Shown here piece by piece: positions 37,323 through 58,028 of a DNA stretch of 64,000 bases; positions within the stretch are counted from its first letter, which is position 1, and the number at the start of each line of letters is the position of its first letter. The notes below the pieces were generated by a model, which saw only the letters and a list, made by a program, of their open reading frames with translations, searched no databases and was not told the origin of the DNA. A program made the translations under genes and the position numbers. This stretch comes from Salinirussus salinus. GTDB lineage: Archaea; Halobacteriota; Halobacteria; Halobacteriales; Haloarculaceae. The stretch covers positions 1-64,000 of the forward strand of contig NZ_WOWO01000004.1 of the NCBI RefSeq assembly GCF_009831455.1. Direction: 5' to 3'.

Positions 37323-37709
37323 ATGGAACTGCGGGACGCCGTCGAGGCCGACGCCGGGCGCCTGGCGGAGTTGACCGACGCCCCGCGGGACGTGATGCGC
37401 AACCTCGTCCACGACCGCACCGTCAGGGTCGCCGAGCGCGAGGAGGAGATCGTCGGCTTCGTCAGCTACGACGCCCGCGCCCGGACGGTTCACGTCACCC
37501 AGATCGAGGGCGACCCCGACGCCTTCCCGACGCTGCTGGAGGAGCCGCTGGGCTTCGCCCGCGCCGAGGGGATGGCCGTCGAGATGCTCGTCCCCGACGG
37601 CGAGCCCGACGTCGAGGACGCCGCGGTCGCCGCCGGCTTCGAGGAGACCGGCTCCGGACCCCGCTTCGAGGGGCGACCCACGACCAGACTCAGGACCGAC
37701 CAGCCATAG
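37323..37709 (+). CDS. GNAT-type N-acetyltransferase
   Basis: This 128-residue protein shows a shortened GNAT fold. N-terminal LRDAVEADAGRLAELTD is followed by VRVAEREEEIVGFVSYD and FARAEGMAVEMLVPDGEPDVEDAAVAAGFEETG. The typical Q/R-x-x-G-x-G/A acetyl-CoA loop is not evident, so activity is uncertain. The TTTTACTG box near 37292 is a probable TATA element for the ATG at 37323. Hairpin repeat copy 2 starts 4 nt after the stop. Confidence 0.78.
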   Translation: MELRDAVEADAGRLAELTDAPRDVMRNLVHDRTVRVAEREEEIVGFVSYDARARTVHVTQIEGDPDAFPTLLEEPLGFARAEGMAVEMLVPDGEPDVEDAAVAAGFEETGSGPRFEGRPTTRLRTDQP

Positions 37710-38010
37710 ACTACTTTTTTGGGCCTCGGGTGCGCTCCGCGCACCGCGTGGCGGCGAGGCCGCCACGGCATGCAGGTGCGGGCCGCCGGCCCGCAACTCG
37801 CTCGCGTAAAAAACACAGTGAAAAAAGCCGGACGCTCGGTCGCGTCGCTCCCTCGCGTCCGGGGAACCGGCGGCCTGCGGCCGCCGGATGCTCGTGGTCA
37901 GCCTGCCCTTCCCCGGGTCGCGCGGTCGCGGCCGCCGCCGCGACACGCGCTCGCGGCCACACCTTGTGCCCGACCAAAACGCCAAGAGACCGGCCACACG
38001 ATCGTTTGGT
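37710..38010. other. Hairpin-rich spacer before the beta-propeller gene
   Basis: No gene is visible in these 301 nt. The spacer carries repeat copy 2 (37714-37829). It also has a hairpin with CCGGACGC/GCGTCCGG arms (37828-37835 and 37855-37862) and a 9-bp hairpin CCGGCGGCC-TGC-GGCCGCCGG (37867-37887). The last 100 nt hold the promoter of the next gene. Confidence 0.7.
37714..37829 (-). repeat. Dispersed hairpin repeat, copy 2
   Basis: Read on the minus strand, this copy is nearly identical to copy 3 over an 80-nt core starting GCGAGCGAGTTGCGGGCC. It holds three hairpins: TGCGGGCC/GGCCCGCA, CGTGGCGGC/GCCGCCACG and GTGCGC/GCGCAC. T and A tracts bound the core. It begins 4 nt after the acetyltransferase stop, so CTTTTTTG could also serve as that gene's terminator. 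It faces copy 3 across one gene. Confidence 0.85.
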
Positions 38011-38991
38011 ATGCTCTACGCGGGAAGCGACGACGGCGTCTACCGCATCGCCGGCGTCCCCGGCCCCGACGAGACGACCGCCGAGCGGGTGCTCGAGGCG
38101 GAGGACGTCTACCGCGTCGAGCGGTACGACCCCCTCGAGGGACTGTTCGCCACTGCGGAGTCCGGGCTGTACTACTCCCCTGCAGGGGACGACTGGCTCC
38201 GGCTCCCGGTCCCGGAGGAGCAGGTCTACGCGGTCACCGTCGACCCCGCGGGCGAGCGGGTCTACGCCGGCACCCGACCGGCCCGGGTGTTCGTCGCCGA
38301 CTGGGACGGGCCACCGGGAGCCGACCGCTGGACCGAACTCGACGGGTTCCGGGCGCTGCGCGACCGGGCCGACTGGGGGATCCCCCGTCACGACGACCTC
38401 GCGCAGGTCCGCAGCCTCCGGACCCACCCCGGGGCCCCCGACCGGCTCGTCGCCGGCGTCGAGGTCGGCGGCGTCCACCTCAGCGACGACCGCGGCGCGA
38501 GCTGGGTCGACAGGAGCATCGAGGGGTTCGACGCCCCGCACACCGACGACATCCACCACATCGCGCTCCCGGACCCGGGGACGCTGGTCGCCTCGACCGG
38601 GAGCGGGCTCTACCGAAGTGAGGACGCCGGCCGGACGTGGACCCGGCTCGACACCGGCCACCGCCAGCGGTACTTCCGGGAAGCGAGCGTCCACGACGGG
38701 GCCGTCTACGCCGGGGCCGCGCCCGCCTCCTCGTCCTCCTGGGAGGAGGACCGCGACCACGCGCTGCTGGTCTCCCGCGAGCGCGGTGGCGAAGGACTCC
38801 AGCAGGTCGACACCCCGACCCCCGAGGAGGTCCCGCTGGGGTGGTGTGTGGTCGAGGGCGACCCGGTAACTGCGACCCACCGAGGGACGCTGCTCCGCCG
38901 GGACGACGGGGAGTGGGAGCGGGCCGGGTCGGTCCCGACGCCGGGGGCGGTCCGCGGGCGGTACATGCCGCTGTGCTGGGTCGAGTCCTGA
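38011..38991 (+). CDS. WD40/BNR-like beta-propeller protein
   Basis: This 326-residue protein is made of repeated blades such as LYAGSDDGVYRI, LFATAESGLYYS, VYAGTRPARVFV, VHLSDDRGASW, LYRSEDAGRTW and LLVSRERGG. Several carry the S/T-x-D-x-G-x-x-W Asp-box. It has no signal peptide or membrane helix. Glycosidase-type residues are not evident, so it is likely a binding or scaffold propeller. Inverted repeat copies 2 and 3 lie on either side, with no other gene inside the pair. Confidence 0.82.
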   Translation: MLYAGSDDGVYRIAGVPGPDETTAERVLEAEDVYRVERYDPLEGLFATAESGLYYSPAGDDWLRLPVPEEQVYAVTVDPAGERVYAGTRPARVFVADWDGPPGADRWTELDGFRALRDRADWGIPRHDDLAQVRSLRTHPGAPDRLVAGVEVGGVHLSDDRGASWVDRSIEGFDAPHTDDIHHIALPDPGTLVASTGSGLYRSEDAGRTWTRLDTGHRQRYFREASVHDGAVYAGAAPASSSSWEEDRDHALLVSRERGGEGLQQVDTPTPEEVPLGWCVVEGDPVTATHRGTLLRRDDGEWERAGSVPTPGAVRGRYMPLCWVES

Positions 38992-39165
38992 CGGACATCT
39001 GCCCCCGTGGGGACCCGCTCGACTCCCGGGCGGTCCGTTCGCTCGTGGATGGCGGCCGCTCACATCCGAGGGTGGCCTTTACCGGGAGCATCCGCGCGAA
39101 CGGCGAGGGGCCAAAGGCCCCTCCTGCAGCCGGACGTAGTCAGGCGACGGCGTGAGCGCGGTTCA

Positions 39166-39200
39166 CTCCGACCGAGCGCAGCGAGGTCGGAGGTCTTTTT
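39166..39200 (+). terminator. Hairpin followed by T run
   Basis: CTCCGACC (39166-39173) and GGTCGGAG (39185-39192) form a perfect 8-bp stem with an 11-nt loop, followed by TCTTTTT. It could end transcripts of the beta-propeller gene, 175 nt after its stop. It may equally be the outer part of the repeat unit, because copy 2 has an analogous hairpin at its T-run side. Confidence 0.35.
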
Positions 39201-39311
39201 CGCCCACGTTTTTGCCGCGAGCGAGTTGCGGGCCAGTGGCCCGCATCTGCATGCCGTGGCGGCCTCGCCGCCACGCGGTGCGCGGAGCGCACCCGAGGCG
39301 GAAAAAGGTGG
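39195..39311 (+). repeat. Dispersed hairpin repeat, copy 3
   Basis: The order matches the other copies: CTTTTTCGCCCACGTTTTTG, hairpin TGCGGGCC-AGT-GGCCCGCA (39227-39245), the CGTGGCGGC/GCCGCCACG hairpin, the GTGCGC/GCGCAC hairpin and GGCGGAAAAAGG. Its ends form an imperfect terminal inverted repeat. Copies 2 and 3 are in opposite orientation about 1.37 kb apart. No transposase lies between them. Confidence 0.85.
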
Positions 39312-39352
39312 GACCGCACACCTTTTGCCCGCCGGTGGTGTATCCGGCGGAT

Positions 39353-40171
39353 ATGCAGACGCTCACCCTGGGACCGGCGGGGACCTACTCCCACCGCGCG
39401 GCCGGGGCCGTCGCCGACGACGACGGGATCGCCTTCACGGAGTCGGTGACGGCCATCGTCGAGGCGGTCGCCGACGGCGACTACGACCGGGGAGTCGTCC
39501 CCGTCGAGAACAGCATCGAGGGGTCGGTGACGGAGTCACTGGACGCGTTCACCGAGTACGAGGTGGCGGTCGTCCGGGAGATCATCACGCCCATCCGCCA
39601 CGCCCTGCTCGCGCAGGGCGAGGACTTCGAGACCGTCGCCAGCCACGCCCAGGCGCTCGCGCAGTGTCGTTCGTATCTGGAGGAACACTACCCGGACGCC
39701 GACCTCGAAGCGGTGGCCTCGACGGCCCGCGGGGTCGAGCGCGCCCGCGAGGACGCGAGCGTGGCCGCCATCGGTCACCCCGCCAACGCCGACGGCGACC
39801 CGGCCCTCCGGACGCTCGCGGAGGACATCCAGGACCGGACCTCCAATGCCACCCGCTTTCTGGTGGTCGCGCCCGAGAGCGAGCGCAGCGAGGCCGGCTC
39901 CAAAACCTCCCTCATCGTCTACCCCAGCGAGGACCGCCCCGGGCTCCTGCTGGAGATGCTCGAACCCTTCGCCGACCGGGACATCAACCTCACCCGCGTC
40001 GAGTCCCGCCCCAGCGGCGAGCGGCTGGGCGACTACGTCTTCCACATCGACGTCGCCGCGGGCCTCTACGAGCAGCGCACCCAGGACGCCCTGGCGGCGG
40101 TCGAGGAGATCGCCGGCGAGGGATGGGTCCGCCGGCTGGGCTCGTATGACTCCGAGACTGTTCTCTACTGA
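39353..40171 (+). CDS. pheA: Prephenate dehydratase
   Basis: This 272-residue enzyme converts prephenate to phenylpyruvate for phenylalanine synthesis. It starts [17 protein letters not shown] and carries [11 protein letters not shown] and the catalytic SNATRFLVV (Thr-Arg-Phe) motif. A C-terminal ACT domain ([26 protein letters not shown]) probably binds phenylalanine for feedback control. There is no fused chorismate mutase. Its promoter region is reduced to about 40 nt by repeat copy 3. Confidence 0.95.
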
Positions 40172-56737: not shown

Positions 56738-57835
56738 ATGGACGCGACGTTCGACGGCACGGCCGTCCGGGCGGGGTCGGCCGCCCGCGAGCAGTTCTAC
56801 GACGCCCGGGGGTACGGCCGGCCCGACGACGGCGGGGTCGTCCTCGCGCCCGTGGAGGCGGCCCACCTGCTCTTCCGCGGCGACCTCGACAGCGTGGTCG
56901 ACCGTCGTCCCGGGGGTAACGGCCGCCGGCTCGGCTTCCCGGCTTTCCTCGCCTCGACGGCCGTCTCGGAGGTCGACTTCTTCGTCTACAAGGACCTCCG
57001 GGACCGGGGTTTTTACCTCTCGCCGGTCGACCGGGGCGGAGCCGGAAGCGGCGGGGCTGGCGCGAACGGTGACCCCGGCGAGTTCGCCGTCTACCCGCGA
57101 GGCAAGGGCCCCTGGGACGACGCGGTCGCCTACCGGGTGCGGGCGGTCAGCGAGCGGGCGACCGTCGACGCCGGGGCGCTACACCGCCTGGCCGCCCCCG
57201 CTGGCGACGACACGGCCGGGAAGGCGGGCCGGGAGCCGACCGGCGTGCTGGCGGTCGTCGACGAGGAGAGCGAGACCACCTACCTCGAACTCGGCACGCC
57301 GACCCTGTCGGGGTCGACCCACCACGACCTCCCACCGGCCGAGGGGGACCTGCTGGCCGACCGGGTGCTGGTCTGGGACGCACCCGACCCGCTGTACGGC
57401 CGGGCCTTCTACGGCCAGCCGCTGGACGACGGGGTCCAGCTCTCGCTGGTCGAGGCGGCCTACCTCGCCCGGGCGGGCCTGCTGACTGTCGACGGCGGGG
57501 AGGAGGCCGTCGTCAAGCGCGGCCGGGAGGTGGAGGGCGACCGGTTCGACCGGCGGCTGCGGGCCTACGGCGCCCTCCGGACGGCCGGGATCGTCCCCAA
57601 GACCGGCTTCAAGTTCGGCGCCGACTTCCGGACCTACGACGACGTGGCCGACGTCGCGGACCTGGGCCACTCCGAGCGGCTGGTCCGGGTGCTCCCGCCC
57701 GAGTACGGCTTCGCGCCGCGGGACCTGGCGCTCGACGTGCGGCTGGCCCACGGCGTCCGCAAGCGGATGGTGTACGCACTGACGGGCACGAGCGAGGGGA
57801 TCGCGTGGCTCTCGGTCGGCCGGCTGACGCCCTGA
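56738..57835 (+). CDS. endA: tRNA-splicing endonuclease
   Basis: This 365-residue protein is the fused, two-repeat form of archaeal EndA that cuts bulge-helix-bulge introns. The C-terminal active unit holds the triad Tyr (FGADFRTYDD), His (DLGHSERLVRV) and Lys (HGVRKRMVY). The N-terminal unit (residues 10-170) is the structural copy. The ATG at 56738 is preferred over in-frame upstream codons that run into the preceding gene. trpS lies downstream on the same strand; haloarchaeal tRNA-Trp genes usually carry an intron, so the pairing makes sense. Confidence 0.94.
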   Translation: MDATFDGTAVRAGSAAREQFYDARGYGRPDDGGVVLAPVEAAHLLFRGDLDSVVDRRPGGNGRRLGFPAFLASTAVSEVDFFVYKDLRDRGFYLSPVDRGGAGSGGAGANGDPGEFAVYPRGKGPWDDAVAYRVRAVSERATVDAGALHRLAAPAGDDTAGKAGREPTGVLAVVDEESETTYLELGTPTLSGSTHHDLPPAEGDLLADRVLVWDAPDPLYGRAFYGQPLDDGVQLSLVEAAYLARAGLLTVDGGEEAVVKRGREVEGDRFDRRLRAYGALRTAGIVPKTGFKFGADFRTYDDVADVADLGHSERLVRVLPPEYGFAPRDLALDVRLAHGVRKRMVYALTGTSEGIAWLSVGRLTP

Positions 57836-58028
57836 GCGATGAAAACCGTTATGTCGCTGGTGGCGGTGGATCGTCGTATGACGGCCGCTTCCCGCCCGTG
57901 GCGCCCGCAGGCTCAGGAAGCGGACAGTCCCGACGGCCGGGCCGGCGCGTGACGCCGCCCCCGACCGCGGTGCTCCCTCCACCTTCTCGCCGCGACGCTT
58001 CGCCCGACGACCACCCAACACCCGACAG

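Follow-up and report, generated by a model that had tools for sequence, protein, structure and literature searches.

The window analysed here, 64,000 nucleotides from the start of contig NZ_WOWO01000004.1 of Salinirussus salinus, contains two facing repeats (copies 2 and 3) that enclose a single gene. We compared the locus with a second genome of the same genus (G001, a fragmented assembly that is 78% complete), referred to below as the congener. The features of the locus are:

37326 to 37709, plus strand: acetyltransferase-like (GNAT) gene whose stop codon adjoins copy 2; its orthologous 3' end is 90% identical in the congener.
37710 to 37958, plus strand (canonical orientation): copy 2, the complete element, left shell through right-hand module.
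37710 to 37720, plus strand: left shell of copy 2 (ACTAC-TTTTTT), directly 3' of a TAG stop codon; the T-tract is a candidate terminator of the upstream gene.
37721 to 37807, plus strand: core of copy 2, formed by three hairpins (A, B, and C); the congener has a different core here (38% identity).
37808 to 37894, plus strand: A-tract, CACAGTG, A-tract, and hairpins D and E of copy 2; the minus strand reads a hairpin and then TTTTTT.
38011 to 38991, plus strand: bracketed gene of 326 aa, a putative Asp-box/BNR propeller, not at this place in the congener.
39088 to 39316, minus strand: copy 3, the whole element, with an approximate right end; its right side points toward the propeller stop codon, and its left edge precedes the pheA start by about 41 nt.
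39165 to 39201, plus strand: hairpin D of copy 3 running into TTTTT, by folding a candidate terminator of the propeller gene.
39214 to 39301, minus strand: core of copy 3 with three hairpins, 96% identical to the core of copy 2.
39353 to 40171, plus strand: pheA, prephenate dehydratase (PDT and ACT domains), with promoter-proximal sequence that is conserved in the congener as far as the copy 3 boundary.

The gene upstream of copy 2, which had no Pfam match, is presumably a GNAT-type acetyltransferase, a label taken from the appearance of its sequence only. The beta-propeller fold that the original prediction assigned to the bracketed gene is weakly supported: one BNR/Asp-box repeat (E = 0.0017, below the Pfam cut-off) is in keeping with it, while no Pfam family exceeded the cut-off, a PDB sequence search returned no relative, and an AlphaFold2 model from the single sequence was unusable (pLDDT 38). 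A candidate target duplication between the region upstream of this propeller gene and the pheA promoter was dropped, because the best 16-nt window matched at 14 of 16 positions and three further upstream regions matched pheA at 14 or 15.

The near-identical repeats facing each other around one gene, as first described, are real. Their inverted arms (37713-37827 and 39195-39309) extend over 115 nt at 88% complementarity, and the cores align over approximately 81 columns, with a longest unbroken exact match of 53 nt. The cores are far more alike than the shells around them, which are 58% identical, and by core the two copies are each other's best match among the long copies of the genome.

Copies 2 and 3 are members of a dispersed haloarchaeal repeat family. 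A DNA search of the 3.37-Mb genome (G000) found 12 long copies, far beyond chance, and a third long copy lies within the window at approximately 214-341 on the minus strand. A covariance model built from the 12 long copies refound them together with shorter, one-hairpin forms, and a second model built on the right-hand module gave 34 matches at E ≤ 0.01; the union of both by position brings the family to about 36 loci. Of the 116 genomes of the taxonomic family, 55 have relatives by DNA search, some as partial matches; at the level of the order, right-module relatives turn up in 83 genomes out of 146. A pattern search for the exact core among genome contigs returned one record, from Halomarina rubra (L225); its R1 score and flank equal those of L055 in genome G011, and from this the taxonomic family is taken to be the one with Halomarina. 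An Rfam scan of the window gave nothing at gathering scores, and among the titles and abstracts that searches of open-licence papers listed, none describes the repeat.

Three parts make up an element of this family: a shell of T- and A-tracts, a palindromic core that varies between copies, and a module on the right-hand side. Read in canonical orientation, an element begins with ACYACY and T5-6, continues through a core of one to three hairpins to A5-6, and is completed by CGTGGGCG or CATAGTG, a further A5-6, hairpin D, GTGAACCG, hairpin E, and CGGATGCT. Many copies carry an extra module beyond CGGATGCT that ends in CGCTCGCGGCC, and one locus of a related genome (L217; G040 C1:2763266-2763632) has the right-hand module three times in tandem at 142-nt spacing. 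Since a T-tract with a hairpin is a simple signal, the likeness between copies might reflect convergence of independent, ordinary terminators under GC-rich composition. To this reading we give almost no credence, as the extended identity of core and shell and the matches across the family genomes already refute it for the long copies.

Covariation of the core hairpins is seen across 27 copies taken from other genomes. In an alignment that was fitted to the model, 17 of 29 pairs changed on both sides, and 93.6% of cells were paired versus 34-47% in slid controls. As a folded RNA the core of copy 3 stands out from its composition (z = -4.92), that of copy 2 is unexceptional (z = -1.39), and hairpin D of copy 3 folds at -21.7 kcal/mol (z = -1.98). 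Hairpin B loops are found in both senses. At loci L078 and L079, which are otherwise almost identical, the hairpin D loops are exact reverse complements (TCGCGGTGCTC and GAGCACCGCGA), which looks like a palindrome inverted in place. The model also matches a different repeat with a similar hairpin B (GGGACTGAAAGGGGCCGCTCGCGTGGCGGC...) and without the T/A-tract shell (L092, L095, and L106, on contigs C1, C2, and C3 of this genome).

The position of the elements relative to genes is distinctive. With gene ends taken from a codon-usage gene caller trained on the window, which misses atypical genes, 26 of the 35 scored copies of this genome have a stop codon or tRNA 3' end no more than 4 nt from their left edge, four of them at tRNAs; three others, including copy 3, precede a gene start by 37-41 nt. 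Among 27 copies from other genomes, 13 have a stop or tRNA end at most 8 nt away, six precede a start by 34-54 nt, and about half do not adjoin a stop codon. Elements are enriched in gaps between convergent genes (18 of 31 versus 22 of 113, p = 5e-5). Placement at stop codons and tRNA ends, together with this enrichment, is what a bidirectional terminator would be expected to show, and copies 2 and 3 obey these placement rules. Only one of the 57 genes of the window shows a TTTTT at most 16 nt from the stop codon, consistent with the gene upstream of copy 2. On the opposite strand, alignments show at the sequence level that hairpin D is accompanied by CTTTTTT. Weighing against a terminator are an automatic terminator scan, which returned two hairpin-T sites and placed only one of them in an element (copy 2, minus strand), the unexceptional core fold of copy 2, and the copies of other genomes that lie away from stop codons. 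In Haloferax volcanii, T stretches terminate transcription in vivo, and hairpins do so less strongly (PMC7237163).

We therefore turn to a model in which copies 2 and 3 are structured gene-end repeats that most likely serve as bidirectional terminators and insulators, that also recombine, and between which the propeller gene is not mobile cargo; we consider this model probable. The terminating and insulating roles are read from sequence. For the gene on the left, the signal would be the T5-6 tract within a few nucleotides of the stop codon; for transcripts from the opposite side, hairpin D would lead into TTTTTT-CGCCCACG-TTTTTT. Copy 2 would thus terminate the acetyltransferase-like gene, and copy 3 would do so for the propeller gene, setting it apart from the pheA promoter. 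The resemblance to haloarchaeal intrinsic terminators lies in a T stretch close behind the stop codon and adjoining hairpins; those terminators are single signals, whereas here a long repeat common to many loci offers candidate signals on both strands (PMC7237163).

Comparison with the congener bears on the age of the two copies. At the acetyltransferase-like gene the congener has the same stop codon, the same T- and A-tracts, and a right module that is 75% identical, but its core measures 52 nt rather than 87 nt and differs in sequence. Copy 2 is therefore old, and its core changed in one of the two lineages. The gene behind the congener's element encodes a quinone oxidoreductase (QOR), and no propeller gene is found there; because the assembly is incomplete, its absence is shown for this place only. 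At pheA, the congener has PrsW directly upstream and no element, and homology resumes at the pheA promoter, where copy 3 has its outer edge. Either copy 3 or its placement is new here, or it was lost in the congener. Since copies 2 and 3 have a common core within differing shells, a core exchange between them, in either direction, is likely; cores may be swapped between copies within stable shells.

Two other readings have copies 2 and 3 act as a unit. The first takes them as the ends of a composite element that travels together with the enclosed gene. An inward-facing pair around one gene invites this reading, as does a second facing pair that brackets a low-GC insert (see below). The congener keeps copy 2, with the same stop codon and shell, next to a gene other than the propeller gene, and the 1.6-kb block is thus not absent as a unit, a pattern that the original prediction suggested looking for in close relatives; this orthology largely refutes the composite element, and adherence to the family placement rules adds to the case. 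Propeller homologues elsewhere had no such repeat in the flanks examined, and no transposase was found among the scanned neighbouring proteins. The genome-wide search, which covered Y1 transposases (PF01797), gave no match in this genome, while control genomes including Haloferax volcanii matched. Each copy belongs to its neighbouring gene, and copies 2 and 3 therefore do not delimit a small jumping element; we regard the composite reading as extremely unlikely. The second reading holds that the pair drives reversible inversion of the propeller gene. The 53-nt inverted match would provide a substrate, and the common core suggests past exchange between the copies, but no inverted arrangement was seen, the congener has no propeller gene at this place, and we consider an inversion switch very unlikely.

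The second facing pair consists of nearly identical elements (L189 and L190, C2:56773-56919 and 57737-57883) behind genes that we take, from sequence appearance, to encode a Cdc48-type ATPase and a CBS-domain protein. Between them lies an insert of 54% GC, in which a lipoprotein-like reading is divided over two frames. The congener has both elements too, separated by a short spacer and lacking the insert, which argues against a composite element here as well, and supports the view that each neighbour owns an element and that facing pairs arise in this way. With about 40 copies, two pairs within 1.7 kb were seen where 0.8 would be expected by chance, so the closeness of copies 2 and 3 is roughly at chance level. 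For inward pairs within 1.7 kb the figures are 2 seen and 0.2 expected, a small-number excess that counts in favour of the composite reading.

Gene order around the copies differs between the two genomes. In the congener, one region reads DP2-like 3' end, QOR, element, GNAT, and AspK, and another reads SUI1, element, EngB, and, farther on, PrsW and pheA. In S. salinus the order is SUI1, element, PrsW, and, farther on, EngB, element, QOR, and DP2-like; elsewhere it is AspK, GNAT, copy 2, propeller, copy 3, and pheA. Pfam confirmed PrsW and QOR; DP2, SUI1, EngB, and similar names are presumed from sequence appearance. All new joints in S. salinus bear an element. Three other genomes have the DP2-like 3' end directly after GNAT, and for this reason the order of the congener at GNAT is probably ancestral. 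Copies thus sit at the joints of a rearrangement that split gene neighbours of the congener, and the propeller gene would have come to lie between two boundaries rather than to travel as cargo of a mobile unit.

The rearrangement is one connected set of events, chosen for study because elements are present. Across 0.79 Mb of the congener, synteny breaks occurred at 6 of 9 gaps with elements versus 9 of 26 others (p = 0.10, not significant), and at 2 of 5 versus 9 of 26 once the four gaps already followed were removed. Given this selection and the non-significant test, we call the link between elements and rearrangement suggestive. The proposal that the repeats are a recombination substrate thus stands in part: the common core within differing shells and the changed gene order with elements at the new joints favour it indirectly. 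We infer gene conversion between copies, and the repeats as a cause of rearrangement, from these patterns. Repeats also lie at rearrangement joints in the haloarchaeon Haloferax volcanii, at sod1 and sod2 (PMC6063281); there the repeats are 600-bp gene copies with experimental proof, whereas here they are non-coding, 80-250 bp long, and the evidence is comparative.

A different explanation is mobility: the repeat would be non-autonomous, of the small-mobile-repeat or MITE-like kind, with inverted T6/A6 ends and a preference for inserting just behind stop codons and tRNA genes, any terminator function being a by-product. Dispersed near-identical copies are in keeping with it, such as L029 and L030 (cores 99% and shells 97% identical), as are candidate inverted ends, T6 and A6 tracts with short flanking complementarity read from the alignment, and PrsW, which has a copy here and none in the congener. 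The PrsW and pheA sites that lack an element in the congener are both rearranged. Small mobile repeats of Haloquadratum walsbyi offer a haloarchaeal precedent: like the present repeat they are non-coding, dispersed, about 110 bp long, and have no recognised partner transposase, their mobilisation being unknown, and they have inverted ends, to which the T6/A6 tracts may correspond; compared by description rather than by sequence, they differ in that they are described as inserting into other mobile elements (PMC3119063), whereas the present repeat sits at stop codons and tRNA ends and has a T/A-tract shell with exchangeable cores. REP/REPIN elements and GTAG- or CGTC-tagged palindromes are likewise short, palindromic, intergenic, dispersed, and often downstream of genes (PMC3733652, PMC3116915). 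Inspected by eye, the oriented alignment of the present repeat shows neither a GTAG nor a CGTC tag at an end; its genome has no Y1/RAYT gene, and several hairpins lie inside its shell. RAYTs can be lost. Against mobility, no target duplication was recognised by eye, no autonomous partner was seen, and the genome has no Y1 transposase. Moreover, the two congeners retain shells at orthologous genes but differ in the cores, a pattern not like that of whole units inserting. We regard mobility as a real possibility, though not the probable account; it can be compatible with the terminator explanation.

The terminator model replaces the mobile-element reading of the locus and accounts for both copies. 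Accounts of transcription termination in archaea mostly feature a plain T stretch. We hypothesize, speculatively and with considerable doubt, that haloarchaea possess modular terminator repeats in which a fixed gene-end shell holds a swappable palindromic core, that such repeats act as portable homology that reshuffles gene neighbourhoods, and that facing pairs provide insulated sites where single foreign genes can land. If true, a widespread repeat that has candidate signals on both strands, is tied to stop codons, retains its shell as the core changes, and lies at rearrangement joints would link transcription termination to haloarchaeal genome plasticity, a link that the copies of the repeat make testable.
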